From positions 1,426,001 to 1,490,000 of the forward strand of contig NZ_CP108352.1 in the NCBI RefSeq assembly GCF_036237275.1: a DNA stretch of 64,000 nucleotides, written 5' to 3'. The notes under the pieces are model-generated. The model did not search any database. It was not told the origin of the DNA and saw only the letters and a list, made by a program, of their open reading frames with translations. Numbering within the stretch: the first letter of the stretch is position 1; each line of letters starts with the position of its first letter. The position numbers and the translations under genes were made by a program. This document shows positions 43,245 to 62,503 of this stretch, piece after piece. Source of the DNA: Streptomyces sp. NBC_01353. Its GTDB lineage: Bacteria > Actinomycetota > Actinomycetes > Streptomycetales > Streptomycetaceae.

Positions 43245-43686
43245 TGTTCAGAATCCTTCCTGGTCCCCCGCGCCGGGAAGGGGCGGTTCGTTCCATCCTC
43301 ACCGGCCGAACAGTGCGACATTACGGGACCGGCGATCTCCATCGGCGCCGCCCCCGCAGGGCCCCCCTCACCCTCCCCCCGCCCCCCTCGGGGGGTGACA
43401 AGGGTTTTCCCCGTATCGGGTTCATCTCGCCTTTCCCTACTGTCTGCCGCACCGGCAGATCCCATCCCCCGAACCACGCTCCCCGCAGGCGATCAGGTCG
43501 CCTGTCAGGTGCATGAGGGGACGAGGGTGGTGTCCGCCGGTGACGGCCTTGACCCGGGCCGTCGCGCCGGTGGCGGCGCACGGGCCCCCCAAGCCCAGGG
43601 ACCGGCGGACCGCAACCCCACGTCGCACCCCGTTCCCGCGCCGCCGCCACTGCTCCGCACCTACGTCGTGCTTGAAAGGGAACACC
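43245..43686. other. 442-bp intergenic region before the subtilisin gene
   Basis: No gene seen. It holds a hairpin CCCCCC-TC-GGGGGG (43382-43395) in a C-rich stretch, and the promoters of the lipoprotein (left end) and protease (right). An open frame from 43513 into the protease gene is read as upstream leader, since the signal peptide starts at 43687. AAAGGGA precedes the TTG. Confidence 0.5.
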
Positions 43687-45522
43687 TTGAACAGTTCCAG
43701 GCGGAGAGTCATATCCGTCGTGGTCGCGAGCGCCGCGATCGTCGGCGCCGCTGCCACCTCCACCGGGGCGTTCGCCGCCGCCCCGGCCGCTGCGACCCCG
43801 AAGCCCGCTCCGGCTTCGCAGACGATGACCGCGCTTCCCAGCGCCCCGGTCGAGAAGGTCATCGTCACCTACAAGTCCAAGACCGCCGAGGCCGGTTCGA
43901 ACGCCGCCGCCAAGAGCGACGCCGCCGCCAAGGGCGCCGAGACCGGCGAGAGCCTCTCCTTCGAGCGCCGCCTCGCCGGCGGTGCCGCGCTGGTCGACCT
44001 GGGCGACAGCGCCACGAAGCAGGACGTCACCGAGGTCATGGACGCCTTCCGCGCCGACTCCTCGGTCGCCTCCGTGGAGCCCGACATCCGCGCGTACGCG
44101 ATGGCGGTCACCCCGAACGACACGGACTACACCAAGCAGTGGGACCTCTTCGAGGCCACCGGCGGCATGAACGTTCCGCCCGCCTGGGACAAGACGACCG
44201 GCTCCGGTGTCACCGTCGCCGTGATCGACACCGGCTACGCGGCCCACTCGGACCTGGCGACCAACGTCGTCGCCGGCTACGACTTCATCTCCACCTCCGC
44301 CGACGCCCGCGACGGCAACGGCCGTGACGCGGACGCCAAGGACGAGGGCGACTGGAACGCGACCGACAACGAGTGCGGTCTCGGCTCCAAGGCCTCCAAC
44401 TCCTCCTGGCACGGCACCCACGTGGCCGGCACCATCGGCGCGGTCACCAACAACACCAAGGGCATCGCGGGCATCGCGTACAACGCGAAGATCCAGCCCG
44501 TGCGCGTCCTCGGCAAGTGCGGCGGTTCCTCCGCGGACATCGCCGACGCCATCACCTGGGCGTCCGGCGGCACCGTTCCGGGCGTCGCGGCCAACGCGAC
44601 CCCGGCGAAGGTCATCAACCTGAGCCTGGGCGGCGCCAGCTCCACCTGCCCGAGCGTCTACCAGAACGCGATCAACGGCGCCGTCTCGCGCGGTACCACC
44701 GTCGTCGTCGCCGCGGGCAACAGCAACGCCAACGCGTCCGGCTTCACCCCCGCGAACTGCTCGAACGTCATCACCGTGGCGTCGACCAGCCGTGAGGGCA
44801 ACCGTTCGTACTACTCGAACTTCGGCTCCATCGTGGACGTGGCGGCCCCGGGCGGCGAGACCCGTCGCGCGACCGACACCCCCGGCACCGTCACCACCCC
44901 CGAGAACGGCATCTACTCCACGCTGAACTCGGGCGCGACGACCCAGTCGGCGGAGAACTACAAGCCCTACCAGGGCACCTCGATGGCCGCGCCGCACATC
45001 GCCGGCCTGGCGGCCCTGCTGAAGTCGGCGAAGACCGGCCTCACCCCGGCCGAGATCGAGTCCGCGATCAAGTCCAACGCTCGTCCGCTGCCCGGCACCT
45101 GCACCGGCGGCTGCGGCACCGGCATCGCCGACTCCGCGAAGACCGTGAACGCCGTCACCACCACGACGCCGCCGGCCGGCAACGTCTTCACCAACGCGAC
45201 CGACGTGACGATCTCCGACAACACCACCGTGTCGTCCTCGATCGCCGTCACCGGCCGCACCGGCAACGCCCCCGCCGCCCTCAAGGTCGGCGTGGACATC
45301 AAGCACACCTGGCGTGGGGACCTGGTCATCGACCTGATCGCCCCCGACGGCACGGTGCGCAACCTGAAGGCGTCCAGCGGCTCCGACAGCGCCGACAACG
45401 TCGTGACCACGTACACGGTCGACGCGTCGAGCGAGGTCGCCAACGGAACCTGGAAGCTGCAGGTCCGCGACGTGGCATCGGGTGACACCGGCTACATCGA
45501 CTCGTGGAACCTCACCTTCTAG
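43687..45522 (+). CDS. Secreted S8 (subtilisin) family serine protease with I9 propeptide and P-domain
   Basis: 611 residues. Signal peptide (LNSSRRRVISVVVASAAIV..., Ala-rich), inhibitor I9-like propeptide (~50-130, KVIVTYKSK to YAM) and S8 domain with Asp in VAVIDTGYAAHSDL, His in NSSWHGTHVAGTIGAV and Ser in YQGTSMAAPHIAGLA: complete triad. C-terminal P-domain (~490-611: KHTWRGDLVIDLIAPDGT, SWNLTF). Exported, self-activated protease. TTG at 43687 with AAAGGGA. A hairpin terminator follows. Confidence 0.92.
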   Translation: MNSSRRRVISVVVASAAIVGAAATSTGAFAAAPAAATPKPAPASQTMTALPSAPVEKVIVTYKSKTAEAGSNAAAKSDAAAKGAETGESLSFERRLAGGAALVDLGDSATKQDVTEVMDAFRADSSVASVEPDIRAYAMAVTPNDTDYTKQWDLFEATGGMNVPPAWDKTTGSGVTVAVIDTGYAAHSDLATNVVAGYDFISTSADARDGNGRDADAKDEGDWNATDNECGLGSKASNSSWHGTHVAGTIGAVTNNTKGIAGIAYNAKIQPVRVLGKCGGSSADIADAITWASGGTVPGVAANATPAKVINLSLGGASSTCPSVYQNAINGAVSRGTTVVVAAGNSNANASGFTPANCSNVITVASTSREGNRSYYSNFGSIVDVAAPGGETRRATDTPGTVTTPENGIYSTLNSGATTQSAENYKPYQGTSMAAPHIAGLAALLKSAKTGLTPAEIESAIKSNARPLPGTCTGGCGTGIADSAKTVNAVTTTTPPAGNVFTNATDVTISDNTTVSSSIAVTGRTGNAPAALKVGVDIKHTWRGDLVIDLIAPDGTVRNLKASSGSDSADNVVTTYTVDASSEVANGTWKLQVRDVASGDTGYIDSWNLTF

Positions 45523-45567
45523 TTCCCACCTGAACCACCCCCCACATCAGCATCATTGCTGGTCAGC

Positions 45568-45599
45568 GACGCGCTCGTGGTCTACACCACGGGCGCGTC
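45568..45599 (+). terminator. Terminator after the S8 protease gene
   Basis: GACGCGCTCGTGGT (45568-45581), loop CTAC, ACCACGGGCGCGTC (45586-45599): 14-bp stem with one T-G pair, 46 bases after the stop. Confidence 0.8.
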
Positions 45600-45726
45600 C
45601 TGGCGTGGTGCCCGGGGTCGGCTGTCCGTATGCCGGACAAGAGGCCTGGACTGCGCGCGTACGCTCCGTATTCTCTGCCCCACGGGGCTCACGGGCAGGG
45701 CCCGAGGGCCGGAGGGGGGTGGACAC

Positions 45727-48700
45727 GTGACGACAGCGCCGCACCTCCCCCTGCGCCCCGCGGGCGTGGGGGGTCCCCCGGCGCCGGTGGGCCGGGAGGA
45801 ACTGCTCTCCCGTCTCGAACGCGTCCTGCACACACGCGGACGCGCCCTGCTCACCGGACCCGCGGGCGTCGGCAAGACCGAGGTTGCCCTGGCGGAGGCT
45901 GCACGCGCGGAGGCCCGCGGAGAAACCGTCCTGTGGCTGCCGACACTTCCGGCCGACCGCGACATTCCGGGCGCGGTGGCCGCCGCGCTCGTGGCCTCGG
46001 TGGCCTCGACGGTGACCTGGCCGGGTGGGGCGACCTCCGGCACGATGCTCCCCGCAGGCTCGACGGGCACGTCCGGCCCGACCGGCCTCTCCACCCCGAC
46101 CGGCCCGGCCGACGTCGCAGGCCCCCGCGAGATCCCCGCACCCCGCCCCGAGCTCGCCTCCGGCGGCGGTCCCACGGCCGGCGGTCTCACGGGAGACCAC
46201 CTCGGACTCAGCGAGGAGCCCGACGCCTTCCGCACGGCCGTCGGCCCGGTCACCACCTCCGGTGTCTTCGACGGACTGCCCGGACCTCAGCGGACCGCCG
46301 TCGCCATGCTCTGCCGCGAGGCGCCGCTGCACGACGGCGGTTGGGACCCGATCGCCCTGCGTCTCGGCATCGCCCAGATCCTGCGTGCCCTCACCGCCCG
46401 CGGCCCCGCCCTGCTCGTCGTCGACGGTGTGCAGCACATCGACGCGGACAGCGCCGACCTGCTGCGCTTCGCCCTCCATCTCGCCCCACCCGCGCTGCGG
46501 GTCGTCGCGGTCGAGACCCCGGAGGCGTACGGCTCCGAGGACGTCCACGACACCCACCTGTGGGTCCCGTCGGAGGCCGACATCCTGCTCGTGCCGGCGC
46601 TGCACGCCGACGAGATCGCCGCGCTGCTCATCCACCACCGGCTGCCGTCCCGGATGGCCGGCCGCATCCACAAGGCGAGCGGCGGCAACCCCCGCCTCGC
46701 ACTCGCCGTGGGCCGCTCGCTGGCCGACGCCCGGACCCCGGTGCACCACGCCGAGGCGCTCACACTCTCCGGGCGGGCCCGCGATCTGGCCCGGCAGCTC
46801 CTCGGCACGGCGCCGCCCGACGTCCGCGAGACGCTGCTGTTCGCCGCGCTGGCTCTGCGCCCGACGGCGGCGCTGATACGCCGGGCCGGGCGGCCGAACG
46901 CGGAGGCGGACCTCGCGGCCGCCGAGCGCGCCGACCTGGTCTCCCTCGCCGAGGACGGCACGGTCGCCTTCACGGCCGGGCTGCTCCCTTCCACCCTGGT
47001 CCACGACGCCTGCTGGGCCGAGCGCAGCGCCGGGCACGCCGCGCTCGCCGGGGTCGTCGACGACCCCGTGGAAGCGGTGCGGCACCGGGCGCTGGCCACC
47101 GACATCCCCGACGAGGCCCTCGCCGCCGAGGTCGCCGCCGCCGCCGATCTCGCCCGGCGCCGGGGCAACAGCGCACTCGCCGCCGAACTGGCCCTGCTCG
47201 CCGCCGAGTCGACCCCGGTCCAGCACGGCGCACAGCGGATCGGACGGCTCGTCGACGCCGCCGAGGAGGCCGCCCGGGCCGCGCGGGCCGACCTCGCGAT
47301 GCGGGCGGCGACCGATCTGCTGGCCCGGGACGCGGCCCCGTCCGACCGGGTACGCGCCAGGCTCGCCGTCCTCGACACCGCGGGCCAGGGCCTCACCGGG
47401 CTCGACGAGATGTACGTACACGCGATGGAGGACTCCGAGGGCGACACCGCGCTGCGGGCGGGTGTGCTGCTCCGACTGGCCGTCAAGTACGTGCTGGCGG
47501 ACGGGGATCCGCTGCGCTCGCGGGCCGCGGCCGTCGAATCGGCCGCGCTGGCCGCCTCGATGGGCGATCCGCGGACGGCCGCCCAGGCCCTGACCGTGCA
47601 GGCGCGGATGGACCGGGCACTGGGGGCTTCGGACGCGGAGTCCGTCCTCGCGCAGGCCCGGGGTCTGGAGATGGCCGAGCGTCCGCTCGGGATCCGCAAC
47701 GCCGCCCAGATCCTGACGATCCGTCACGCCCTTTTCGACGACCGGCTGATCGACGCCCGCGACCAGCTGAACGCCCTCCTCCCGCTGGTGCAGCGGCGTG
47801 GTTCGGTGGAGGACACCATCGAGCTCTTCTCGACGCTCGCCGCGATCGAGTCACGCATCGGGGCGTGCCCGGCGGCGCTCGTCCATGCCGGTCAGTCCCT
47901 GGCACTGACCCTGGAGGCGGGCCTCTCCCCCGGTCCCGCCTGGTACACGCTGGCGCTCGCGGAGACGGCCGGCGGCAGCTTCGGGCGGGCGGCGAGCTAT
48001 GCCCGGCGCAGCGTCCAGGCGTCGGAGGAGGAGGGCGACCGGGTCTTCCTCTCCCGCAGCCTCTACGCGCTGGGCCGCGTCCAGTTGGTCAACGGGGACG
48101 TCGCCTCGGCCCTGGAGACCCTGCGGCGGGTGCAGGCCAACGAGCGGGCCCAGTCGACCGTCGACCCGTCGATGCTGCGCTGGCACGAGGAGCTGGCCGA
48201 GGCTCTGCTCGCCAACGACGCGGCGCGGGAGGCGGCGGAGCTGCTGGCCGAGGTGCGTCCGGTCGCGGAGCGGCTGGGCCGTACGACCGTACTCCTCGGC
48301 TGCGACCGGGCGTACGCGCAGTATCTGGCGACGTGCGGGAAGACGGACGAGGCGGCGGAGCTGCTCGCCCGAACCGCCGAGCGGTTCGCCGAGGCCGGGC
48401 TGCCGCTGGAGCACGGCCGGGCGCTGATCGCGCTGGCACGGGTGGAGCGGCGGCGCCGTCGCCGGTCGGCGGCGCACAGCGCCCTCCAGTCGGCGGCGGT
48501 CGTGTTCGAGCGCGCCGGAGCGGCTCCCTGGCTGGCGCTGACGAGCGAGACGCCCGCGAGTGAGGACGCCCCGTCGGCGCTCTCCTCTCTGACGGACGCG
48601 GAGCTGCGGCTGGCGCACCTGGTCGGGCAGGGGGCGAGCAACCAGGAGGCGGCGGCCAAGCTGTATCTGAGCGTGAAGACGGTCGAAGCGCGCCTCACCC

Positions 48701-48762
48701 GGATCTACCAGAAGCTGGACGTCCGCTCGCGGGCGCAGCTGGCGACCGCGCTCCGCGGCTGA
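45727..48762 (+). CDS. Large ATP-binding LuxR family regulator
   Basis: 1011 residues. N-terminal AAA/STAND-like ATPase with Walker A GPAGVGKTE (~43-51) and Walker B PALLVVDGVQ; a long tetratricopeptide-like middle; C-terminal LuxR/GerE helix-turn-helix (~950-1011: LTDAELRLAHLVGQGASNQEAAAKLYLSVKTVEARLTRIYQKL). Large ATP-binding LuxR proteins of this type (MalT-like) often control antibiotic or secreted-protein genes in Streptomyces. GTG at 45727 has GGAGGGGGG upstream; a longer frame would start inside the terminator at 45568. Position between the secreted protease and the caspase module leaves its targets open. Confidence 0.87.
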   Translation: MTTAPHLPLRPAGVGGPPAPVGREELLSRLERVLHTRGRALLTGPAGVGKTEVALAEAARAEARGETVLWLPTLPADRDIPGAVAAALVASVASTVTWPGGATSGTMLPAGSTGTSGPTGLSTPTGPADVAGPREIPAPRPELASGGGPTAGGLTGDHLGLSEEPDAFRTAVGPVTTSGVFDGLPGPQRTAVAMLCREAPLHDGGWDPIALRLGIAQILRALTARGPALLVVDGVQHIDADSADLLRFALHLAPPALRVVAVETPEAYGSEDVHDTHLWVPSEADILLVPALHADEIAALLIHHRLPSRMAGRIHKASGGNPRLALAVGRSLADARTPVHHAEALTLSGRARDLARQLLGTAPPDVRETLLFAALALRPTAALIRRAGRPNAEADLAAAERADLVSLAEDGTVAFTAGLLPSTLVHDACWAERSAGHAALAGVVDDPVEAVRHRALATDIPDEALAAEVAAAADLARRRGNSALAAELALLAAESTPVQHGAQRIGRLVDAAEEAARAARADLAMRAATDLLARDAAPSDRVRARLAVLDTAGQGLTGLDEMYVHAMEDSEGDTALRAGVLLRLAVKYVLADGDPLRSRAAAVESAALAASMGDPRTAAQALTVQARMDRALGASDAESVLAQARGLEMAERPLGIRNAAQILTIRHALFDDRLIDARDQLNALLPLVQRRGSVEDTIELFSTLAAIESRIGACPAALVHAGQSLALTLEAGLSPGPAWYTLALAETAGGSFGRAASYARRSVQASEEEGDRVFLSRSLYALGRVQLVNGDVASALETLRRVQANERAQSTVDPSMLRWHEELAEALLANDAAREAAELLAEVRPVAERLGRTTVLLGCDRAYAQYLATCGKTDEAAELLARTAERFAEAGLPLEHGRALIALARVERRRRRRSAAHSALQSAAVVFERAGAAPWLALTSETPASEDAPSALSSLTDAELRLAHLVGQGASNQEAAAKLYLSVKTVEARLTRIYQKLDVRSRAQLATALRG

Positions 48763-48784: not shown

Positions 48785-49597
48785 TCACACCGTGAACGGC
48801 TTCTGGCTCAGGAACGCGGACGTGGGGTTTCCCGTCGTGTAGAGGTTCGGGCTCTGCGAGGCGGGCAGCTTGCCCTGGATCGCGCGGTGGAAGGGCCGGT
48901 ATCCGCCACGGAAGGCGCCCTCGCCCCAGACTCCGAGCAGCGCCTCGGTGAAGGCACCGTTGACCGGGCCGTCGGAGGCGACCTGGTTGTCCTGGCAGGC
49001 CGAGATGAGGATCGCCGGCGGTCCGGCGGCCTCTCCGTCGGGGGAAGCCTTCCGCAGGGAGCGCTGCAGCTCCTCGAAGAACGCCTGGTCCCTCTCGTAG
49101 ATCTCCTGCTGCTTCGGTACGGGCATCAGCCGGATGCCGGTCTCGGGCAGGGCCGTACCGGGCAGCTCGATGGCGCTGCCGCTGTGGCAGCAGTCGAGCA
49201 GGGCGAAGATCCGGACGCCGTCGGCGAAGCCCCGGAACTCCTGGTGCAGCTCGTCGTCGAGGAACTGCCGGTCGTACAGGACGAGGGTCTCGTCGAGTTG
49301 GTCCGGTTCATCGTCCGGCCCGGTGACGTCGGGCATCTGCCCGCCGTGACCCGAGTAGGTGAAGAGCAGGATGTCCTCGGGGGCGAGCTTGGCCGCCGCC
49401 TGGCGCAGCGCCGCGGTCACGTTGTCGACGGTGCAGTCGGCGGTCAGCAGGACGGTGTCGGAGAAGCCCGCGGCGCGGGCGATCCTGGCCATGTCGTGGG
49501 CATCGTTCTCGCAGGCCACGAGGGCGCCGTCCCAGCCGTCGTAGGCGTCGGGGTCGACCTTGTTGAGTCCTACATGGATGGACAGTCCGGCTGCCAT
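48785..49597 (-). CDS. Caspase-like (metacaspase-type) cysteine protease
   Basis: 270 residues, a stand-alone p20-like caspase domain. N-terminal sheet SIHVGLNKVDP, the ACENDAHDM motif, catalytic His84 in FTYSGHGGQ, and catalytic Cys137 in LLDCCHSG. Both dyad residues are present. Substrate residue preference is not clear; basic residues are usual for metacaspases. Cytoplasmic, no signal. ATG with AGGAGG at 7 bases. Divergent from the NUC1 nuclease and the NTPase-trypsin gene, so it is likely controlled with them, as one of several effectors of the module. Confidence 0.92.
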   Translation of the reverse strand: MAAGLSIHVGLNKVDPDAYDGWDGALVACENDAHDMARIARAAGFSDTVLLTADCTVDNVTAALRQAAAKLAPEDILLFTYSGHGGQMPDVTGPDDEPDQLDETLVLYDRQFLDDELHQEFRGFADGVRIFALLDCCHSGSAIELPGTALPETGIRLMPVPKQQEIYERDQAFFEELQRSLRKASPDGEAAGPPAILISACQDNQVASDGPVNGAFTEALLGVWGEGAFRGGYRPFHRAIQGKLPASQSPNLYTTGNPTSAFLSQKPFTV

Positions 49598-49703
49598 GGG
49601 GTGCCTCCTTGGGGGTGAGGGAGGGAGGCTCCGGGGGGCGGCTGATCGAGTGGCCTGCGGCCCGGTGCCGAGCGCGACCCTTCATGCGCGGTACTTACAT
49701 CGT
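49598..49703. promoter_or_regulatory. Divergent control region of caspase and endonuclease genes
   Basis: 106 bp. The caspase side has AGGAGG. On the nuclease side there is no Shine-Dalgarno; TACTTA (49692-49697) lies 6 bases before the ATG, which fits a -10 box with transcription starting at the ATG (leaderless). No good -35 was found. Confidence 0.45.
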
Positions 49704-50600
49704 ATGAAACAGACCGATCCCCCGTCCTCTCCACCGCCTCCCCGAGCGGGCGGACCCCGCCGAGATTCGCTCACCGACCGGACCGGATACGACGAGAACT
49801 TCCTCGGTCCCGTCGTGCCGCTGCCCGTGCCCGTCCGCAACTCGGTGGAGACGGTGACGCTGCCGTACACCCACTTCACCGTGGTCTTCCGGCCGGACCG
49901 GCGGCTCGCCGCCTCGACCGCGGTCTGCATCGAGGGCTCGCAACTCGCCGAGGACGTACCCCGGGACGACGTCTGGGAGTTCGATCCGCGGCTGCCCGAT
50001 GAGCACCAGGCCGGCAACGAGATCTACCGGAACAACAGCCTGGACCGCGGGCATCTGGTGCGCAGACTCGATCCGGTGTGGGGCACCCCGGCAGTGGCCG
50101 GCCGGGCCAACACGGACACCTTCCACTACACGAACGCCGCCCCGCAGTCGGACGTCTTCAACCAGGGAAAGCAGCTCTGGCAGGGCCTGGAGAACTATCT
50201 GCTCGACCATGCGGCCGAGTTCGACCGGAAGCTGACGGTGTTCACCGGTCCGGTGCTGCACGACTCGGACCCGCCCTACCGGGGTGTGCAGGTGCCGCTG
50301 CGCTTCTGGAAGGTGGCCGCGTTCATGCAGGACGGGGCGCTGGCCTCGACCGCGTACGTCCTCGACCAGAGCCCCGATCTGAGCCGGGACGCCGAGCGGG
50401 CGCTCGCCGGTGCGAAGGCGGGCGCGCCGCCGCCGCTCGGCCCGTACCGGACGTACCAGGTGCCGGTCTCGGACATCGCGGAGATCACCGAGCTGGAGTT
50501 CGGGCCCTTGCCCGATGTCGATCTGATGCCGCCGACGCGGGCGCCGGAGGACCGCTGGCGGCGGCTGGAGTCGTTCGACGACATCGCGATGCAGGGCTGA
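49704..50600 (+). CDS. NUC1-type DNA/RNA non-specific endonuclease
   Basis: 298 residues. A Pro-rich, Arg-rich N-terminus (~1-30), then the betabeta-alpha-metal nuclease domain. The catalytic motif DRGH is at 114-117; the metal and positioning residues follow, TNAAPQ (143-148), VFNQG (151-155) and LWQGLENYL (158-166). No signal peptide, so it would act inside the cell on the host or invading nucleic acid. ATG at 49704 (MKQTDPP). Lies in the same transcription direction as the NTPase-trypsin gene 134 bp downstream. A possible EndoG-like executioner. Confidence 0.92.
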   Translation: MKQTDPPSSPPPPRAGGPRRDSLTDRTGYDENFLGPVVPLPVPVRNSVETVTLPYTHFTVVFRPDRRLAASTAVCIEGSQLAEDVPRDDVWEFDPRLPDEHQAGNEIYRNNSLDRGHLVRRLDPVWGTPAVAGRANTDTFHYTNAAPQSDVFNQGKQLWQGLENYLLDHAAEFDRKLTVFTGPVLHDSDPPYRGVQVPLRFWKVAAFMQDGALASTAYVLDQSPDLSRDAERALAGAKAGAPPPLGPYRTYQVPVSDIAEITELEFGPLPDVDLMPPTRAPEDRWRRLESFDDIAMQG

Positions 50601-50676
50601 CCCGGCCGCCGGTCCGCCGGTGGATCGCCCGTTTGCCACGGCCCCTGCCCGGTGAAACGATTGTGCTGGCAGGTTT

Positions 50677-50692
50677 CAGTCAGTCAGTCAGT
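50677..50692 (+). repeat. (CAGT)4 tetranucleotide repeat upstream of the NTPase-protease gene
   Basis: Four exact CAGT copies 43 bases before the ATG at 50735. Just upstream TGAAAC (50653-50658) and GTTTCA (50673-50678) form a 6-bp inverted repeat. Unusual in such GC-rich DNA. TTGTGC at 50661-50666 could be a -35, which would put the repeat in the spacer and -10 region. Confidence 0.6.
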
Positions 50693-50734
50693 CCGTCCCG
50701 GGCTTCCCCGGAGGGACGGCCGGGCAGGTGCCGT

Positions 50735-53700
50735 ATGCCGCTCAGCGAAACGGAATGGGGACTCGTCACGAGCTGGGTGCGTGAGCACCTCCTCGACGCC
50801 CCCGATCCCCTCACCCGACTGCGGCGCAGCGGCCTCTCGCAGGATTTCGTCGCGGATCTCGAGCTCACGCCGGACCGCGACGAGAACGCGCGGCTGGTCG
50901 TCAGCACGGCGCGCCGGGACGTCGCCCACCAGCGCCGGCTGCTCGACGTACTGGCCGGGCTCGACGCCCTCACCGGCGCGGGCAACGCCGAGGCGAGGAT
51001 CCTGCTGACACGGCTGCGGGAGGACGAGGCGGTTCTGCACTCCGCCCAGGACCCCTTCCGCACCCTCGTCCTCGCCAACGGGGCCGAGGTGTTCATCGAC
51101 CGGCACGAGCTGCGCGAGAAGCTCCGCGCCTTCGTCGCCGACCCGGAGCAGACGGTCCTGGTCGTGGACGGCGAGCCCGACAGCGGGCGCTCGTACTCGT
51201 ACCACCTCATCCGGCATCTCGGGCAGCACTGCGGCTTCCGTCCGGTACGCGTGACCCTCTCGCGCACGTCGACGGCGGCGCGCCTGGTGGAGCGGCTCGA
51301 CGACTTCGTGGCCCCTCCCGGTACGGACCGGATGCCGTTGAACCCCACACAGTTGAACGATCCACTGCCGGCGATCGACGACGCCGTGCACCGGATCGTC
51401 AGCCGGGCGACCGCCGCGGAGGAACGGTTCTGGCTGGTCCTCGACGAGTGCGACAAGCTCGATCCGAACGCGGACGTCTGGGACTGCATCGGCAAACTGG
51501 CACTCGCGGTCTACGAGCACACACCGGTACGGCAGGACGCCGTGCCCCGGCTCGTCCTCCTGGGCTACTCACCTACCATGCGCCAACTCCCCTACGACAT
51601 ACGCAAGAACGAGTGCCGGGACACGGCCCGAGTCGTCGGGGAGGACGATCTACGGGAGTTCTTCCGGGAGTTCTTCACCCAGGAGCGCCCCGCTTCGGAC
51701 GCCACGGCGATACCGGCGCTCGTGGACGTGGCGGTGACCGAGGTCCTCCGGGCTGTCGACACCCCTGGTTCCGGCGACAGTTACATGCGCCGGGTGTGCA
51801 CGGCGGTGGAGGAGACGGTACGACTCTCGCGCTCCCTCACCCCCGGCGGCGACCTCACCGGAGTGCTCCACCAGGCCATGCGGGACACGACCGGGTCGCC
51901 CCCGCCCGCACCGCCCGAACTGCGCGCCGCCTACCGGGAGGCGGCCTGCCTCCTCGACGCGTTCGACCCCACCCGGCTGCGGCTGCCGGACGAGAGCGGG
52001 CCCACGGGGCGGGCCGCCCTTGCCCTCGTCGACGACTGCACGGCCCTTCCCTCGCATCCCTCCCCGTCCTGGACCCTGAAGCCGGAGATCCGGGAGCTGG
52101 CGCTGAGCGGACTCGCGGGCCCCGAGGCCGCCCGGCGCGCCCTGGAGGCCAACATCGGGCTCGTCCCGGAAGGCCCCGGCCCCGAGCGTGCGGCGCTCGC
52201 CCTGCTGTCCGGCGTCGCACCAGGTCTGTCCCCGGTCGCTCCGGACCTGTCGAGGGTCGCTCCCGACATGTCCGGGGTGGCACCCGGCCTCTCCGGCACC
52301 CCTCCCGACGCGTCCGCGGTCGCTCCCGACCCGTCCGGCACCGCGCCCGCCCCAGGCCGGCCGCACGACGTCGAAGGGCTCGCGGACACGCTGCAGGCCG
52401 TGCTGTGGCTGAGCCGGGTCCCCGGCACGACCGGGCTGCCCGATGTGGACGACGTACAGCACCGTCTGGAGCGGGCGCGTCTGCTGCAGCCGTTGGAACG
52501 GCTGATCCAGGAGACCGTCCACGGGCGGCAGCGCGAACTCGACTCCCTGCGCGGCTACATCGACCTGCCCGCCGAGCCGGCCGAGCCACCCGTCCTCATC
52601 CACGGCGTGGGCGGCGTCGGCAAGAGCACGCTGCTCGCCAAGTTCCTCGTCGACAGCCTCCACGACTCGCCCGCCGGATTCCCCTTCGTCTACGTCGACT
52701 TCGAGCGGCCGACGCTCTCCATCCACGAACCCGCCACCATGATCGCCGAGTTCGCCCGCCAGCTCGGCATCCAGTACCCGCGCCACCGTGCCGCGTTCGA
52801 CGCCCTCGCGGACGAGTGCGAGGAGACCGCCGCCTCCCAACGGGGCGCACGGAACCAGCTGGACGAGCTGTTCCAGCTGTCCACCACCCGCGCGACCCTC
52901 GGCCGCGACTACTCCGCCGGGTTCCACTCCCGGGCCAGCGCCCGCGAGCAGGAGCTCGCACAGAAGGTCGCCGAGCTCGTCGCCGAGGCCGTGCGCGGTC
53001 CGGCGGGCGCGATGGACCCGCCGCTGGTGATCGCCCTCGACTCCTTCGAGGAGGCGCAGTACCGCGGTTCGCCGGTCGTCGGCCGCATGTGGGCGATCTG
53101 GACCGCCCTGCGCGCCGCCTACCCACGGCTGCGGTACATCGTCTCCGGACGGGCCCCCATCGACCACCCCGCCAGGGTCCTCGCCCTCCGCACCATGGAA
53201 CTCGGCGAACTGGACCAACAGGCCGCCGTCGACCTGCTGATGGCCTCCGGCGTGGAGGACGAGGCGGTCGCCCGGGACCTCGCCGACCGGGTCGGCGGCC
53301 ATCCACTCAGCCTGAAGCTGGCCGCCCGGACCGCCGTGATCCTGGGCGCGCGGTCCGAGTCACTCGGAGACCTCCTGTCGAGCCTGCCCTCGCGCAAGCG
53401 CTGGTTCCACCACCAGGTCGACCAGATGCTCATCCAGGGCACGCTGTACGACCGCATCCTGAAGCACATCGCGGACGACGCGGTCCGCGCCCTGGTGCAG
53501 GCGGGTCTGGCCCTGCGGGTCATCACCCCGGAGCTGATCCAGGACGTCCTCGCCGAGCCCGCCGGACTCCATGTCACCTCGCCGCAGGAGGCCCGCGCCC
53601 TCTTCGGACGGCTGGTCTCGCGGGCCGACCTGATGGAGTCGGCGGGGCCGCAGGCCGTACGGCATCGGGCCGATCTGCGCTCGATCATGCTGAGGCTCTC

Positions 53701-56092
53701 CGACAGCGCGCGTACGGATCTGATGCGGGCCGTCGACCATCGTGCGGTGGAGTTCTACTCCACCCGCGAAGGCGCCGCCGCCCGCGCCGAGGAGATCTAC
53801 CACCGGCTCCGCCTCGGCCAGAACCCCCGTGCGGTGGAACGGCGTTGGCAGTCGGGCGTCTCCGGACACCTGGTCGGGGCGGACCGGGACATGCCTGCCC
53901 GTTCGGCCGCCTTCCTGCTGGGGAAGATCGGCGGACACGTACCGGACCGGATCATGGCCGAGGCCGACCAGAAGGACTGGGAGCGGATCGCCGCCCGGGA
54001 GGTCGAGGACCTGCTCACCCAGGGGTACGTGGAGGTGGCTTCGGAGCGGCTGGCCGAGCGCCGGCCCTGGACTCCGTGCAGCAAGCTGCACGGGCTCCTG
54101 GTGGAGACGCTGGCCAGGTCCGGACGGCTGGCCGAGGCGCGGGAGACGGCCGAGGCGGCCGTGGACCGGGCGGAGGAGGCCGGGTGCTCGGAGATGCAGC
54201 TGGAGCTGCTGCAGATCTCGGCCCGTCTCGCCCAGGACGAGGGCGACTTCGCGGACGCCGACCGCGATCTGCAGGAGGCGGAGGACCTGGCGGCCGGCCT
54301 CGGCCTCGCCCATGAGTCGATGGGCGTCCTGGTGGCCAGGTCGCGGCTGGCCGTGCTCTCCGACGAGGGTTCCGCCGAGACGGACGCCCGCCTCGCCGGC
54401 GCCCTGCGCGGTATGCCGGACGCGGAGCTGGCCCGGCAGCCGGCCCTGGCCCGGGCCGCGGCCGCCACGGCCTCCCGGGTCGATCCGCAACTCCTGGAGC
54501 ACACCCTGCGGCTCGTAGGTCTCCCGGCCGACGACGAGGCGGTGGTCGACGCCCTCGCCCGCTGGATCGAGACCGCCATGGTCGATGAGCCCCAGCTGCG
54601 CGAACCTCTGACGCGGATCCTGGAGTCCGCGGCGGGAGCCTCGCCGCAGGAGCCCCTGGCCGGAGCAGCGGGGCCCGGCGCCGTGGGTTCACCCGACATG
54701 CCGTACGCGACGGTGGAGCAGGCCCTGTGGGAGGCGCGCAGGCGCGGCACGCTGGACAGCCTCGCGTGGCGGGCGCTCATGCTCCGCGACCGGAGCGGCG
54801 ATCTGGTCGAGGGGGTGGCGGCCGCCATCGACGCGAGTTCCCCGGCGCGCGGCCCGCTCACGGAACCGGGTGCGGCCAGGAGCGGTACGGGGCTGTGGTC
54901 GCAGCCGCCGCCTGACTCGGCCGAAGCGTCGGTGCGCAGCGATCCGTATCTCTCCCCCGAGGACGTCGTACGGGTCCGCAACGCCGCGCTGGAGGCCGGG
55001 CTCGCCGAGAACGCCGTACGGCCCCTGCTGTTCGCGGGCATCACCGCGCACTTCCGGGCGAGCCTGCCCACGATGGACACCCCGCTGCGGCAGCTCCACT
55101 CCGACCTGCACACGATGAACCAGGTGGAGCGGCTGATCGACGGGACGGTGCCGCTGGAGGTCTGGCTGCGCAACGCCCTCGCCCAGACCGTCGAGGCGGG
55201 CCCGTTCACCGTCCTGCAGCGCGCCCTGGACGACGTGGCGCGCGACGCCGCAGGAGAGCCTGACCTGCCGCCGGAGATGATGCCCGGCGAGACCAAGGAG
55301 GAGATCATCTTCCGGGACGACACCGTGCCGTTCGAGTTCCTGCACGGCGGCGTCCTGGCCGGCACCTCGGTCGCGCGCCTGAAGGTCCCGCCGTACGAGT
55401 CCGGCCGGCCCCAACAGCCCGCCTACCCGCACGCCGGTACCGGCTGGATCATCGCGCCGGGGCTGCTGATCACCAACCACCATGTGGTGAACGCCCGTAC
55501 CCGCTCGCCCGGGGCACGACCGCAGGTGGCCGAGGCGGATCTCCGACTCCAGGTGGCCAACTCCCGTTCGCGCTTCGACTACGGCGCCGACGAGACGGAG
55601 ACCGAGGAGGTGACGGCGGGCGCCCTGATCGCCTGGGACGAGACGCTCGACTACGCGGTCCTACGGCTCTCGGACGGACTGCCGCCCCGGCCGATGCTGC
55701 GGATCGCGACCGCGCCCCTGCAGCTGACCGGCACGGAACCGGTGGCGGTGAACATCATCCAGCACCCCGGCGGACAGCCCAAGCGGGTCGCGCTGCGCAA
55801 CAACCTTGTCTTCCAGGCGGACGAGCGCGACGTCCGCTACTTCACCGACACCCGCAGCGGATCGTCCGGTTCGCCGGTCTTCACCGACGACTGGACGGTC
55901 GTGGCGCTCCACCGCGGCACCCGCCGGATGGAGGAGGTCGACTTCCAGGGCAGGAAGACGGCGTTCGTGAACGTCGGCACGCAGATGAGCCGGATCCTGG
56001 CCCATCTGCGGGAGAACAGCGTGGAGTTGTACGAGGAGATCACCCGAGCGCAGTCGGCCACGGCCCCACAGGACCACGAGTGGGCCGCGTGA
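50735..56092 (+). CDS. Very large protein: degenerate STAND-like NTPase + active NTPase + helical repeats + trypsin-like protease
   Basis: 1785 residues. Domains: a short N-terminal helical, effector-associated-like region (~1-95); first P-loop module (~120-420) with an altered Walker A VVDGEPDSGRSYS at ~143-155 (Arg for Lys) and LVLDECDKL at ~234-242; a 7-residue repeat linker (493-541); second STAND/NACHT-like NTPase (~590-900) with intact Walker A GVGGVGKST (624-632) and Walker B LVIALDSFEE (764-773); a helical repeat region (~950-1420); a C-terminal trypsin-like protease (~1545-1785) with His1583 in TNHHV, Asp1639 in LDYAV and Ser1711 in GSSGSP. All triad residues are present. Cytoplasmic. 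Likely senses a trigger by the NTPase/repeat part and releases protease. ATG at 50735, frame open further upstream but unlike protein. Confidence 0.88.
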   Translation: MPLSETEWGLVTSWVREHLLDAPDPLTRLRRSGLSQDFVADLELTPDRDENARLVVSTARRDVAHQRRLLDVLAGLDALTGAGNAEARILLTRLREDEAVLHSAQDPFRTLVLANGAEVFIDRHELREKLRAFVADPEQTVLVVDGEPDSGRSYSYHLIRHLGQHCGFRPVRVTLSRTSTAARLVERLDDFVAPPGTDRMPLNPTQLNDPLPAIDDAVHRIVSRATAAEERFWLVLDECDKLDPNADVWDCIGKLALAVYEHTPVRQDAVPRLVLLGYSPTMRQLPYDIRKNECRDTARVVGEDDLREFFREFFTQERPASDATAIPALVDVAVTEVLRAVDTPGSGDSYMRRVCTAVEETVRLSRSLTPGGDLTGVLHQAMRDTTGSPPPAPPELRAAYREAACLLDAFDPTRLRLPDESGPTGRAALALVDDCTALPSHPSPSWTLKPEIRELALSGLAGPEAARRALEANIGLVPEGPGPERAALALLSGVAPGLSPVAPDLSRVAPDMSGVAPGLSGTPPDASAVAPDPSGTAPAPGRPHDVEGLADTLQAVLWLSRVPGTTGLPDVDDVQHRLERARLLQPLERLIQETVHGRQRELDSLRGYIDLPAEPAEPPVLIHGVGGVGKSTLLAKFLVDSLHDSPAGFPFVYVDFERPTLSIHEPATMIAEFARQLGIQYPRHRAAFDALADECEETAASQRGARNQLDELFQLSTTRATLGRDYSAGFHSRASAREQELAQKVAELVAEAVRGPAGAMDPPLVIALDSFEEAQYRGSPVVGRMWAIWTALRAAYPRLRYIVSGRAPIDHPARVLALRTMELGELDQQAAVDLLMASGVEDEAVARDLADRVGGHPLSLKLAARTAVILGARSESLGDLLSSLPSRKRWFHHQVDQMLIQGTLYDRILKHIADDAVRALVQAGLALRVITPELIQDVLAEPAGLHVTSPQEARALFGRLVSRADLMESAGPQAVRHRADLRSIMLRLSDSARTDLMRAVDHRAVEFYSTREGAAARAEEIYHRLRLGQNPRAVERRWQSGVSGHLVGADRDMPARSAAFLLGKIGGHVPDRIMAEADQKDWERIAAREVEDLLTQGYVEVASERLAERRPWTPCSKLHGLLVETLARSGRLAEARETAEAAVDRAEEAGCSEMQLELLQISARLAQDEGDFADADRDLQEAEDLAAGLGLAHESMGVLVARSRLAVLSDEGSAETDARLAGALRGMPDAELARQPALARAAAATASRVDPQLLEHTLRLVGLPADDEAVVDALARWIETAMVDEPQLREPLTRILESAAGASPQEPLAGAAGPGAVGSPDMPYATVEQALWEARRRGTLDSLAWRALMLRDRSGDLVEGVAAAIDASSPARGPLTEPGAARSGTGLWSQPPPDSAEASVRSDPYLSPEDVVRVRNAALEAGLAENAVRPLLFAGITAHFRASLPTMDTPLRQLHSDLHTMNQVERLIDGTVPLEVWLRNALAQTVEAGPFTVLQRALDDVARDAAGEPDLPPEMMPGETKEEIIFRDDTVPFEFLHGGVLAGTSVARLKVPPYESGRPQQPAYPHAGTGWIIAPGLLITNHHVVNARTRSPGARPQVAEADLRLQVANSRSRFDYGADETETEEVTAGALIAWDETLDYAVLRLSDGLPPRPMLRIATAPLQLTGTEPVAVNIIQHPGGQPKRVALRNNLVFQADERDVRYFTDTRSGSSGSPVFTDDWTVVALHRGTRRMEEVDFQGRKTAFVNVGTQMSRILAHLRENSVELYEEITRAQSATAPQDHEWAA
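52211..52357 (+). repeat. 21-bp tandem repeat (seven copies) in the linker of the NTPase-protease
   Basis: Seven in-frame units code for GVAPGLS, PVAPDLS, RVAPDMS, GVAPGLS, GTPPDAS, AVAPDPS and GTAPAPG. It joins the first and second NTPase modules. Confidence 0.8.
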
Positions 56093-56145
56093 GAACTGCC
56101 GTATGAGGCCGGCCTCGGGACGAACTGAGGAGGAGGTGGCGGGAG

Positions 56146-57207
56146 ATGCGGTACGGATCACCGGTCGCGACCGATCCCGAGCGGGTCTTCGACGATCTGC
56201 GGGGAGTCGCCGCACGGGTGCGCGGGCACCTGGAGGCGGAGATCTCCGAGTCGGTGGAGGAGCTGCCGCCGGACGAGGCTCCGGCGGGCCAGATCTCCCG
56301 CTTCGCGCAGGAGGAAAGGGCCCGTGTCCTGGAGGCCGGCGTCGCCGGTCTGGAGAAACTGGCCGCTGGCCGCGCGGACGAGATCGACGAGGACGAGTAC
56401 TTCGGGGTGGAGGCGATCGTCCTCCTGGAGGGCAGGCCCGCGATCCTGGTGCAGGGGCAGGACTTCGCCGCGCAGGACGGCGACTGGTCCGTGCTGGACG
56501 CGGGACGGGCGGCGATCCGTGAGTCGATCGCGCGCGTGGGCCGCGTCGAGGTGACCGGCCACCCGAGCCTGGACTGGGTCGGGACCGCCTTCCTGGTAGG
56601 TCCGACGACGGTGATGACCAACCGGCACGTGGCCGTGGAGTTCAGCCGCGCCGAAGACGCCGGATGGTCCTTCCAGCAGGGCATGTCCGCCCGCGTCGAC
56701 CCGGGCGAGGAGCTGTCCGCGACCCCGGAGCCGGTCGGCGGCCCGCCGCCGTACGAGATCACCGAGGTGATCGGCATCCACCCGGACGTCGACATGGCCC
56801 TGCTCCGGGTCGCCCCGCCCGACGGCGGCGCACTCCCGACCCCGCTCGCGGTCGCCGCCGACGCACCCGCGAACGTGCCCGGCCGACCGGTCTACGTGAT
56901 CGGCTACCCCGCCTGGGACGGCCGCCGCAACGAGCCCGAGTCGATGCGGCGGATCTTCATGGACGTCTACAACGTGAAGCGACTCCAGCCGGGCACGGCG
57001 ACGGAGTTCACCCCCGGCGGTCAGGTGATGAAGCACGACTGCTCGACCCTGGGCGGCAACAGCGGCTCCCCGGTCTTCGACCTGACGGACCACCGAGTCC
57101 TCGGCCTGCACTTCGGCGGCCGCTACCGCCTCGGCAACTTCGCCGTACCGCTCTGGGAGTTGGTCGACGATCCCCTGCTGGCCCGGGCGGACGTCAACTG
57201 GGTCTGA
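56146..57207 (+). CDS. Trypsin-like serine protease with N-terminal helical domain
   Basis: 353 residues. An N-terminal ~120-residue helical, acidic domain (AARVRGHLEAEISESVEEL) which is probably an interaction domain, then a trypsin-like domain with His161 in TNRHV, Asp216 in DVDMALLRV and Ser306 in GGNSGSPVF. No signal peptide, so it acts in the cytoplasm. ATG with GGGAG at 2-6 bases, GGAGG further upstream. 53 bp downstream of the NTPase-trypsin gene, so same operon. The N-terminal domain may be the 'trypsin co-occurring' adaptor. Confidence 0.88.
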   Translation: MRYGSPVATDPERVFDDLRGVAARVRGHLEAEISESVEELPPDEAPAGQISRFAQEERARVLEAGVAGLEKLAAGRADEIDEDEYFGVEAIVLLEGRPAILVQGQDFAAQDGDWSVLDAGRAAIRESIARVGRVEVTGHPSLDWVGTAFLVGPTTVMTNRHVAVEFSRAEDAGWSFQQGMSARVDPGEELSATPEPVGGPPPYEITEVIGIHPDVDMALLRVAPPDGGALPTPLAVAADAPANVPGRPVYVIGYPAWDGRRNEPESMRRIFMDVYNVKRLQPGTATEFTPGGQVMKHDCSTLGGNSGSPVFDLTDHRVLGLHFGGRYRLGNFAVPLWELVDDPLLARADVNWV

Positions 57208-60120: not shown

Positions 60121-61443
60121 CTAGCCACTCACCGTCGCGGGCGTGGGGCCGTCGGGGCGGACGGTGATGCCGTAGGCCGTCCTGGCCGGCGTCGAGTGGA
60201 AGCGCGGGGTGTGGGCGGGCAGCAGGTGTTCGAGGAGGACGGTGGACTCGCGGAGGGCGAACTGCAGGCCGAGGCAGGCCCGGGGCCCGATGCCGAACGG
60301 GAGGTAACTCCCCGGGTCGTTGGGGCGCCGGCCGGGGGTGGTGAAGCGCGCCGGGTCGAACAGCTCGGGGTCTTCCCAGAGTCCGGGGTCCCGGTGCGTG
60401 AGGTAGGGGCAGACGAGTACGTCGGTGCCGGCCTCGATCTCGTATCCGGCGAGGAGGTCGTCCTCCGCCGCGCAGCGCGGCAGTATCCAGGCGGACGGGT
60501 AGAGGCGCAGCGTCTCGCTGACAAGAGCCTGGACGGCCTGCCGCCGTTCGGGTGAACCGTCGGCGCCCGCGGCGAGCGCCTGCTCCCGCGCCCGGGGGTT
60601 TCGGTCGAGCAGGAGGTAAAGCCAGGTCAGGGTGGTGGCGGTGGTCTCGTGGCCGGCGACGAGGAGGGTGACCAGCTCGTCGCGGATCAGCCGGTCGGTG
60701 TACTCGGGGCGCGTTCCGGCCGCCTCGACGAGGATGTGCAGCAGACCGGGGCCGTCGGGTCCGGCCTCACCGTCGCGGGCGGCGGCGATGGCGCGGCTCG
60801 CCACGGCGTCGATTCTCGCGAGCTCGTCGCCGACGGCGCCCTGAGCGGCGGCGCTGTCGGCGGGCAGGCTGGGCAGTGCGGCCACCACGGTGGGTACGGC
60901 GGCCAGTTCGCGCTCGGTATCGGCATCGAGGGGATGGCCGGTCAGGGAACGCCAGATCGTGTCCAGGGCGAAGCGGCGCATCTCGTCGCCGACGTCGAGG
61001 ACCTGCCCGGTGCGGGCGTACGCGTCCCAGCGCGCCGCGGTGGTCCGGGCGGCCTCGGTGATCCGCTGCTCGTAGCGGCGCATCCCCCGGCCGGTGAACT
61101 GGGACTGCAACAGCCGCCGTTGCCGCTGCCACGCCTCGCCCGTCGCGGCCAGGACGCCGTCGCCGATGAGCAGTCGGGCGCGGTGCGAGCGCTTCACGTA
61201 CCGGTCGGGGTGGAGCGCGAGCACGTGCTGCACGGCCGCGGGTGCGGTGACCAGGACGGTCGGGCGCGGGCCGAGCCGGAACGCGGCGACGCCGCCGAGG
61301 CGTTCGCACGCCTCGGCGAGGAGGTCGACGAGCTCCCCTCCCCCGGCCTGCCACTTCGCGACGAGGGCGGGATCCAGTTCGGGAACCCGCCGAGCTGAGG
61401 GAGACGGGCTCGGAAGGGAGGACGAGCGGGCGGGGGTGGCCAC
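60121..61443 (-). CDS. Cytochrome P450
   Basis: 440 residues. Heme loop FGIGPRACLGLQFA, I-helix LVAGHETTATTLTW, K-helix ETLRLYP: all P450 landmarks. The sequence style (FxIGPRACLG, ETLRLYPSAW) is that of CYP102/CYP110-like class fatty-acid or terpene hydroxylases. GTG at 61443 has CAGGAG at 7 bases; the open frame extends to a GTG at 61482. A strong hairpin separates it from the 2-MIB genes, so it need not act on 2-MIB. Confidence 0.9.
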   Translation of the reverse strand: MATPARSSSLPSPSPSARRVPELDPALVAKWQAGGGELVDLLAEACERLGGVAAFRLGPRPTVLVTAPAAVQHVLALHPDRYVKRSHRARLLIGDGVLAATGEAWQRQRRLLQSQFTGRGMRRYEQRITEAARTTAARWDAYARTGQVLDVGDEMRRFALDTIWRSLTGHPLDADTERELAAVPTVVAALPSLPADSAAAQGAVGDELARIDAVASRAIAAARDGEAGPDGPGLLHILVEAAGTRPEYTDRLIRDELVTLLVAGHETTATTLTWLYLLLDRNPRAREQALAAGADGSPERRQAVQALVSETLRLYPSAWILPRCAAEDDLLAGYEIEAGTDVLVCPYLTHRDPGLWEDPELFDPARFTTPGRRPNDPGSYLPFGIGPRACLGLQFALRESTVLLEHLLPAHTPRFHSTPARTAYGITVRPDGPTPATVSG

Positions 61444-61546
61444 GGGTCTGCTCCTGTTCGGCGGCTGCACGTCGTCACGCACTGTAGGGGAGCGGGCGCG
61501 AGGGGCGACAGACCGCCTCGGCTCCGGGCATCGGGCTCCGGCTGCG

Positions 61547-61585
61547 CCGAAGGGGTCGGGCCCATGACGGGCCCGACCCCTTCGG
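61547..61585 (-). terminator. Perfect 17-bp hairpin terminator after the 2-MIB operon
   Basis: CCGAAGGGGTCGGGCCC (61547-61563), loop ATGAC, GGGCCCGACCCCTTCGG (61569-61585). On the minus strand it follows the GPP methyltransferase stop by 19 bases. No T run follows. Confidence 0.85.
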
Positions 61586-61604
61586 TCAGCGGTGCGGCGG
61601 TCGG

Positions 61605-62489
61605 TCAGACGCGGTCGGCCGCGATCAGGACGTACTGGAACGAGCCGTCCTTGTAGGAGTTGATGAACGCCTCCTCGATACCCGTGACCAGGGAGGACGT
61701 GGCGCGCAGCTCCCAGTACGGGAGCGTCGCGGGGGTCAGGTCGATGACGGCCTGCGGCACGAGACGGTTGTCGGCCATGGCCCGCAGGTACTCACGGCGG
61801 GAGTGGATGTTGCACTCGAAGTGCGCGTTGATCTGGGAGACCCACTTCGAGGGCTGGCCGTAACGCGGGTTCCAGCAGCCGGTGATGGTCACATAGCGGC
61901 CGCCGACCTCGAGGACGCGGGAGTGCTCGGCGAAGAGGTCGTTCAGGTCGACGTACATGCTCGACTCGTTGTTCCACGAGGCGGCGGCCTGGCCGGTCTC
62001 GAAGGGCGTGTCGAGCATGTTGCACACACGGGCGCGGACGTGGTCCCCGATGCCGAGTTCATCGGCGCGCCGGTTGGCGAACTCGGCCTGCTTGGCCGAA
62101 AGCGTGACGCCCTCGACCTTGCACCCGAATCGCTGATGGGCCATGACCATCGAACCGCCCCGGCCGCAGCCGGCGTCGACGAGCGTGTCGTCGCTCCCGA
62201 TGGAGCCGAGGTTGTCCAGGAGGACCTCGGCCTGCGCCGACTCCAGGCGGTGGAGCTCGGCGATCAGCTTCTTCTCGTACGCGCTGTCCTCGACGTCCCC
62301 GAGGGCGGCGTGGTCGATGTCGCCGATGCCGTAGTGGTGGTGGTAAAGGCCGTCGACATCGCCGAGACGCAGGTTCACCGGCCTGGCCTCGTTGTTCCAG
62401 TAACGGGCGATGTCACTCTGATAGGGCGTCGCCGGTCCCGGGACGAACGCGGAGATGCCGTTGACGGTGGTGAACTCGGTGCTGGTCAC
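61605..62489 (-). CDS. gppmt: Geranyl diphosphate 2-C-methyltransferase
   Basis: 294 residues. SAM-dependent methyltransferase: VDAGCGRGGSMVMAHQRFG (motif I), VEGVTLSAKQAEFA and YVTITGCWNPRYG. N-terminal YWNNEARPVNLRLGDVDGLYHHHYG is typical of the GPP methyltransferase, which makes 2-methyl-GPP, substrate for 2-MIB synthase encoded 14 bp upstream. GTG start (GGAA upstream). Third gene of the operon encapsulin, MIB synthase, methyltransferase. Confidence 0.93.
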   Translation of the reverse strand: MTSTEFTTVNGISAFVPGPATPYQSDIARYWNNEARPVNLRLGDVDGLYHHHYGIGDIDHAALGDVEDSAYEKKLIAELHRLESAQAEVLLDNLGSIGSDDTLVDAGCGRGGSMVMAHQRFGCKVEGVTLSAKQAEFANRRADELGIGDHVRARVCNMLDTPFETGQAAASWNNESSMYVDLNDLFAEHSRVLEVGGRYVTITGCWNPRYGQPSKWVSQINAHFECNIHSRREYLRAMADNRLVPQAVIDLTPATLPYWELRATSSLVTGIEEAFINSYKDGSFQYVLIAADRV

Positions 62490-62503
62490 AGATGATTCCG
62501 TTC

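Follow-up and report, generated by a model that had tools for sequence, protein, structure and literature searches.

A compact locus in Streptomyces sp. NBC_01353, lying within a 64,000-nucleotide stretch of contig NZ_CP108352.1 (positions 1,426,001 to 1,490,000; this whole stretch is hereafter the window), encodes a caspase, an EndoG/NucA-type nuclease, a 1785-residue protein in which two P-loop domains are fused to a trypsin, and a second trypsin-like protease (trypsin 2). We consider it likely that this locus is the Streptomyces form of the NucA-trypsin (System 3)/STAND, CARD-NLR-type cell-death systems, supplemented with a caspase. Judged from sequence comparison, the module is a real conserved unit; its parts, their linkage, their homology to proteobacterial operons and the invariance of the catalytic residues can be read from the genomes compared. 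The invariant core consists of a divergent P-loop domain (NTPase1), a STAND domain, an EAD5-trypsin protease and trypsin 2, and the caspase, the nuclease and, at sister loci, an alpha/beta-hydrolase are variable. The system is otherwise of a known kind; new here is a CARD-NLR-like core with EAD5 and without a recognisable CARD, plus the caspase. The features of the locus, in window coordinates, are as follows.

48785–49597, minus strand: caspase gene, 270 amino acids (open reading frame translation and Pfam)
49598–49703, no strand: 106-bp divergent intergenic region between the caspase and nuclease genes (from coordinates), a probable shared promoter of both
49704–50600, plus strand: gene for the EndoG/NucA-type nuclease, 298 amino acids, start inferred (Pfam)
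50735–56092, plus strand: gene for the 1785-residue fused core protein, NTPase1 + STAND + EAD5 + trypsin (open reading frame, Pfam)
50735–51874, plus strand: NTPase1 region of the core protein, residues 1–380 (alignment of 17 sequences)
52520–53059, plus strand: STAND/AAA_16 P-loop domain (GVGGVGKS), followed by the TPR-like region (PF13191)
54947–55345, plus strand: EAD5 adaptor domain (PF19957)
55436–55909, plus strand: C-terminal trypsin domain of the core protein (PF13365)
56146–57207, plus strand: trypsin 2 gene, 353 amino acids (PF13365)

Domains and catalytic residues

The four genes are separated by gaps of 106, 134 and 53 bp. A preliminary description had placed them at these positions with the expected catalytic residues, and translation and Pfam agree with it; its parts list held all four genes but did not name the EAD5 domain, and it also overlooked the hydrolase of sister loci and the kinship with CARD-NLR systems. 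The absence of signal peptides, also proposed there, agrees with Kyte-Doolittle hydropathy, which reveals no hydrophobic N-terminus (the highest 19-residue mean within the first 40 residues is 0.3; no dedicated signal-peptide predictor was applied). Conservation of residues was assessed among module sequences covering >70% of each profile, taken from the window and from 62 named loci, all in Streptomyces, that were recovered by a contig scan with the NTPase1 alignment; as the scan relied on a pair of short peptide patterns, divergent relatives would escape it. Within this set, the catalytic residues are unchanged in the caspase (H84/C137, 51 of 51 sequences), the nuclease (D-x-G-H, DRGH in the window, 48 of 48), the C-terminal trypsin (H1583/D1639/S1711, 59 of 59) and trypsin 2 (H161/D216/S306, 58 of 58), and the Walker-A lysine of the STAND domain (K630) is kept in 61 of 61.

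The core protein comprises, in order, an N-terminal region, NTPase1, the STAND domain (AAA_16, PF13191, E = 8.5e-11), a TPR-like stretch with a weak match to TPR_12 (E = 0.053), EAD5 (PF19957, E = 6.5e-51) and the trypsin (Trypsin_2, PF13365, E = 6.5e-18), whose best-scoring solved chains are FAM111A and glutamyl endopeptidases. The preliminary description counted two NTPases; one P-loop is indeed canonical, but the other is divergent. In NTPase1, about 100 residues without a family assignment precede a P-loop, GEPDSGRS, in which arginine replaces the Walker-A lysine, and the motif LVLDECD. The form GxPxSGRS occurs in all 17 genomes found without pattern selection, and the arginine (R152) in 63 of 63 sequences of the pattern-based set, for which one scan pattern contains that arginine. 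Because the lysine is lost here while the STAND domain keeps it, NTPase1 is probably a nucleotide-binding or structural co-subunit. Scanned alone, NTPase1 of the window has no Pfam match over the cut-off; at E values up to 10, AAA_22 is matched by 17 of 17 aligned sequences and AAA_16 by 16 of 17 (best E = 1.3e-6), and no convincing sequence relative was found in the PDB (best E = 0.16). Homology between the two P-loop domains was rejected on a control profile comparison of NTPase1 with its own STAND domain (2.1% probability). Among 396 genomes of the phylum, NTPase1 has two matches, the source genome and one genome of the same genus. Trypsin 2 matches Trypsin_2 (PF13365, E = 1e-20) and the PADLOC model ‘nacht’ (6.6e-17). 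Glutamyl endopeptidases score best among its solved relatives, so it might conceivably cut after Glu.

The caspase (Peptidase_C14, PF00656, E = 5.6e-24) is a single-domain orthocaspase of family C14, encoded divergently in the payload slot, and its nearest solved chain is Geobacter GSU0716 (3bij), with an end-to-end profile match at E = 6.2e-96. The nuclease is of the EndoG kind (Endonuclease_NS, PF01223, E = 2.8e-42), and its PDB profile matches include EndoG itself (E = 1.8e-6). Nucleases of this family also occur in a different setting: six other Streptomyces-type genomes (L073–L078) encode proteins of 618–736 residues with a C-terminal Endonuclease_NS domain. The N-terminal half of the L073 protein resembles, by eye, a Nal1-type serine protease (Pfam Nal1_C at only E = 0.25) and the product of the adjoining gene is a trypsin protein in which PGAP1 similarity is very weak (E = 0.15), making this neighbourhood a possible second NucA-protease set.

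Linkage and variation across Streptomyces

EAD5 was found in 17 of 246 same-genus genomes and NTPase1 in the same 17, with a short fragment in one more (G090). The nuclease is present in 14 and the caspase in 13 of these, each at the module, so that the core occurs without nuclease in 3 of 17 genomes and without caspase in 4. Co-occurrence with the core genomes is far from random by the hypergeometric test (P = 1e-15 for the nuclease, 2e-18 for the caspase), although these values ignore relatedness and are indicative. Homologues of the caspase at ≥63% identity are confined to 13 of the 246 genomes, and all 13 lie beside the module; six further genomes with caspases at 52–54% identity were excluded from the counts. 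For the nuclease, 20 genomes have homologues at ≥67% identity, with 11 further genomes excluded for matches of only ≤48% identity, and in 6 of the 20 the core is absent.

The named loci extend this picture. NTPase1 is followed by STAND, EAD5-trypsin and trypsin 2 in all 57 loci readable downstream (five are cut off). The upstream payload slot, readable in 58 loci (four are cut off) and scored as occupied where >60% of the query was covered, holds a caspase in 49, the EndoG-like nuclease in 46 and the alpha/beta-hydrolase in 30. The caspase occurs without the hydrolase in 28 loci, together with it in 21, and the hydrolase without the caspase in 9; none lacks both. The hydrolase is not at the window locus; the one scanned (L027) matches Abhydrolase_1 barely above the cut-off, and a remnant covering 16% persists in L032 (L115 of the named set). 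No further conserved upstream payload was seen in the hydrolase-only loci.

Three forms can be distinguished among the 55 loci that could be read both upstream and downstream (L079, L106 and L125, cut off downstream, were left out): A (21 loci), B (13) and C (21). In form A, to which the window belongs, the core through the first trypsin is a single protein, and the payload consists of caspase and nuclease with no hydrolase (21 of 21). Form B has EAD5-trypsin as a gene of its own, and in form C the genes for NTPase1 and STAND are split apart too. Since the same parts in the same order occur both fused and split, these forms suggest that the parts act together. The flanks differ too: a LuxR-type gene adjoins all 21 form A loci and two form B loci, and shares no locus with the hydrolase gene, and an ABC/two-component set adjoins form C in all 5 such genomes of the first set, with an ABC gene within reach at 10 loci of the second. 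Just downstream of one form B locus (L032:12433–14002) lies a gene for a protealysin-like M4 peptidase, followed by a small open reading frame, which may be emfourin-like; proteins with N-termini similar to those of the L032 downstream genes adjoin L030, L031 and L034.

Distances between the genes are correlated in all 27 testable pairs (r = 0.57–0.90), with none of 499 permutations as high, and on this and the genus-wide linkage chance neighbourhood was rejected. The earlier proposal that the locus is one system is thus strengthened by conservation within the genus, by correlated gene distances and by the joint reappearance of core components on proteobacterial plasmids. The further idea of an exact four-gene set as the unit did not hold: it describes form A (21 of 21), with an exception in the 246-genome set (G015, a form A locus without nuclease), and fails in the nuclease genomes that lack the core and the core genomes that lack the nuclease.

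These exceptions bear on whether two or three separate systems, a STAND/trypsin core plus a caspase and a nuclease that are each independent of it, happen to neighbour one another, which we regard as improbable. Nucleases without core, and cores without nuclease or caspase, would fit such an arrangement, as would caspases of about 50% identity, found at six loci, with no module gene nearby in the five that were read (L152–L156). At one of these (L152), the neighbour scanned is a PAS-GAF-SpoIIE protein; neighbours with similar N-termini occur at the other four. It is weakened by the placement of 13 of 13 close caspases at the module, by the fusion of homologues of trypsin 2 and the nuclease into single proteins in two proteobacteria, and by the state of the six orphan nucleases. 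Two of these look broken (G025, which reads EHGR at the motif, and G150, which has an in-frame stop), G098 reads ERGH, and the remaining three retain D-x-G-H. In one orphan-nuclease genome (G224), fragments of a trypsin-2-like gene adjoin the nuclease, and the LuxR gene is fragmented as well, so that this assembly may be poor.

Relatives on plasmids and comparison with known systems

‘System 3’, predicted by Kaur et al. 2020, couples multiple peptidases to a NucA-like endonuclease, with a predicted cascade that deploys the nuclease (PMC7159879). LypABC, shown by Banks et al. 2026 to drive lysis, is CARD-NLR-like: trypsins stand alongside two ATPases, one divergent and one canonical, and a NucA-type domain. 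Its lysis depends on the peptidase residues of LypA and LypC and on the ATP sites of both LypA and LypB (PMC13236601). CARD-NLR effectors are swapped between gasdermin, phospholipase and endonuclease (PMC13236601). We use ‘LypA-, LypB- and LypC-like’ below as labels by length, order and domains following that paper (PMC13236601).

Relatives of the core recur together on plasmids. A tblastn search with trypsin 2 matched 33 plasmid records, and 13 matches carry the annotation DNA/RNA non-specific endonuclease; both such proteins tested, from two proteobacteria, are fusions of a trypsin with a NucA domain. Trypsin 2 and the module nuclease map to the two halves of a 662-residue Paraburkholderia fusion (E = 9.5e-42 and 8.1e-56, respectively, scaled to 1e6 sequences). 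NTPase1 plus STAND matched 18 plasmid records, 14 of them in common with trypsin 2: ten closely similar Rhizobium plasmids and those of Polaromonas, Paraburkholderia, Hymenobacter and Ruegeria. By hhalign, the STAND domain aligns over 557 columns with seven plasmid LypB-like STAND proteins from trypsin-bearing operons (E = 2.3e-66). NTPase1 aligns with a 350-residue Paracoccus protein whose annotation names EAD1 and with the corresponding protein of Caulobacter (E = 4.5e-13; P-loops GKS and GRS, respectively), as well as with the ATPase half of LypA-like proteins (E = 1.1e-6). Among the four records not shared, the operons at the Paracoccus locus read (one of two) and at the Caulobacter locus contain an annotated trypsin-like or serine protease. 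The EAD5-trypsin protease matches the LypA-like trypsin at E = 2.3e-15, weaker evidence given the generic fold. The caspase profile found no match among 29 plasmid proteins tested. Within Streptomyces, a distant variant lies on a plasmid of S. cellulosae (NZ_CP109251.1, 5815–11686; L149), where a trypsin-2-like gene precedes one encoding a 1625-residue trypsin-like protein whose P-loop motif is canonical (GEAGCGKT).

System 3 and the module share a NucA-type nuclease, more than one trypsin, a STAND fused to trypsin and multicellular hosts (PMC7159879). Endonuclease_NS is present at the window but, with 46 of 58 loci, is not universal; two trypsins are found in 57 of 57 loci; and the optional STAND-trypsin-bDLD2 protein has a possible counterpart in the STAND-trypsin fusion, in which no Death-like domain was recognised by sequence. 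As published, System 3 is mostly alphaproteobacterial with EAD1 or bDLD2 (PMC7159879), whereas the present module belongs to Streptomyces and has EAD5 and a C-terminal trypsin; the divergent P-loop domain, the caspase and, at sister loci, the alpha/beta-hydrolase are its own. Like the module, CARD-NLR/LypABC has two trypsins, an Endonuclease_NS domain and two ATPase domains, of which one is divergent and the other canonical (PMC13236601). The parts are, however, cut differently: LypA is CARD-trypsin-ATPase and LypC trypsin-endonuclease (PMC13236601), and the module has EAD5 and a caspase but no recognised CARD. Likeness to LypB was established through the seven plasmid STAND proteins, with C. 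crescentus LypB outside the comparison, and both domains of LypA have homologues, including the replacement of the Walker-A lysine by arginine, but on differently cut polypeptides.

Other assignments were rejected. The EACC1-caspase two-gene system likewise places a caspase-family protease in actinobacteria (PMC7159879), but the present caspase reaches just 39.5 bits with NCBIfam caspase_w_EACC1, for which the cut-off is 140, and belongs neither to that subfamily nor to that system. A MoxR-vWA ternary (VMAP/iSTAND) system was dismissed as well, neither gene being detected by Pfam in the module itself, in its LuxR neighbour or in seven other window proteins scanned. Nor do sequence scans and N-terminal alignment support EAD1 or CARD at the N-terminus. 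We found no description of this module in the literature searched, although the figures and source data of PMC7159879, which were outside the search, may list Streptomyces examples.

Canu and HamMAB/Avs are comparable too: a trypsin or caspase is paired with a DNase in a defence locus and, according to Tuck et al. 2025, proteolytically activates a nuclease different from the present one (PMC12799240). By analogy, the module might contain a Canu-like pair, the nuclease being cleaved and activated by no protease but the caspase, with the STAND-trypsin protein as an upstream switch. The precedent itself (PMC12799240) and the adjacent, divergent caspase and nuclease genes, together in 45 of 49 caspase loci, make this conceivable. 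We nonetheless judge it unlikely: Canu nuclease is a gated enzyme of the metallo-beta-lactamase fold (PMC12799240), whereas the module nuclease is an EndoG/NucA-type Endonuclease_NS with no gate recognised, which excludes membership in Canu proper, and at three caspase-only loci the caspase must have other targets because nuclease and hydrolase are both absent.

A putative protease cascade and its biological setting

Under the favoured assignment to NucA-trypsin/CARD-NLR-type systems, a protease cascade leading to cell death is the likeliest mechanism. The STAND domain and TPR-like region would act as a switch, oligomerising with ATP once a trigger is sensed, with the divergent P-loop domain, counterpart of the LypA ATPase, serving as nucleotide-binding co-subunit. 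Oligomerisation would gather the EAD5-trypsin protomers, which in the source genome are fused to the switch, and the activated trypsin would cleave trypsin 2 and/or the caspase. The cleaved proteases could then release the payload, here the EndoG-like nuclease and the caspase and at sister loci a lipase-like hydrolase additionally or instead, which would kill the cell, probably as abortive infection. In this scheme we infer every activation step, the order of the proteases, the target of the payload and the trigger. The nuclease need not be the executioner, because the endonuclease catalytic residues of LypABC are dispensable for lysis in Caulobacter (PMC13236601).

A number of observations weigh against this assignment and mechanism. 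Inspection of the nuclease alignments by eye showed no insertion resembling a protease-gated plug, and no defence genes were recognised by Pfam among seven neighbours (PADLOC was not run on these). Under the EAD principle partner EAD copies are expected; 16 of 17 module genomes have one EAD5 match, as does the source genome, so that EAD5 would self-associate and not recruit other EAD5 proteins. EAD1 was not found in the source genome, with control genomes silent too, and no alignment was obtained between the N-terminal domains of the module and of the plasmid proteins, sequence methods being weak for the CARD fold. The convergence on plasmids is not complete: four of the 18 STAND records fall outside the trypsin-2 records, the STAND match of R. 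etli (H50) has no annotated trypsin adjoining, and the trypsin-nuclease of Paracoccus liaowanqingii (H1) has no STAND neighbour. The plasmid loci are LypABC-like by architecture only, the C. crescentus and Lysobacter proteins being outside the comparison. Among viral contigs, 29 pattern matches yielded no relative, and phages gave one weak trypsin match; a phage- or virus-borne module was accordingly rejected. Finally, distances of the flanking LuxR gene correlate with those of the module genes as well (r = 0.57–0.84), so that such correlations attest to co-inheritance as a unit and not to function.

On an alternative reading the locus is a regulated lysis or development module, acting in mycelial autolysis or particle release as LypABC does in the release of gene transfer agents (GTA), and not in phage defence. 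LypABC is required for GTA lysis in Caulobacter (PMC13236601), the source-genome module sits on an 8.47-Mb contig, and relatives of the same form share a site, as with the LuxR-type gene beside form A, which suggests long residence. The patchy presence in 17 of 246 genomes, unlike that of a developmental gene, and the payload that differs among relatives make this role doubtful.

The cell-death assignment can be taken one step further, tentatively, to a bacterial ‘apoptosome with EndoG’. An APAF1-like STAND would recruit a serine-protease initiator through self-assembly of EAD5 instead of CARD; the initiator would activate trypsin 2, the caspase and the EndoG-type nuclease; lipase-like and nuclease payloads would be swapped between species; and a CARD-NLR core would have captured a true caspase branch in Streptomyces.

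Elsewhere in the window, genes for a subtilase with a P-domain and for a LuxR-type AAA_16 regulator lie just upstream of the module (43513–48762), and at 60121–63769 a cytochrome P450 gene and a terpene synthase gene lie close together on the minus strand.

The module extends the logic of CARD-NLR/NucA-trypsin systems to Streptomyces, a setting in which cell death, mycelial growth and attack by phages come together. It also adds a caspase to a pathway for which no downstream lytic effector is known in Caulobacter (PMC13236601). With fused and split forms and with caspase-only, hydrolase-only and three-payload loci, its relatives allow comparison of protease order and of the killer. The module is a possible bacterial counterpart of the animal apoptosis machinery.

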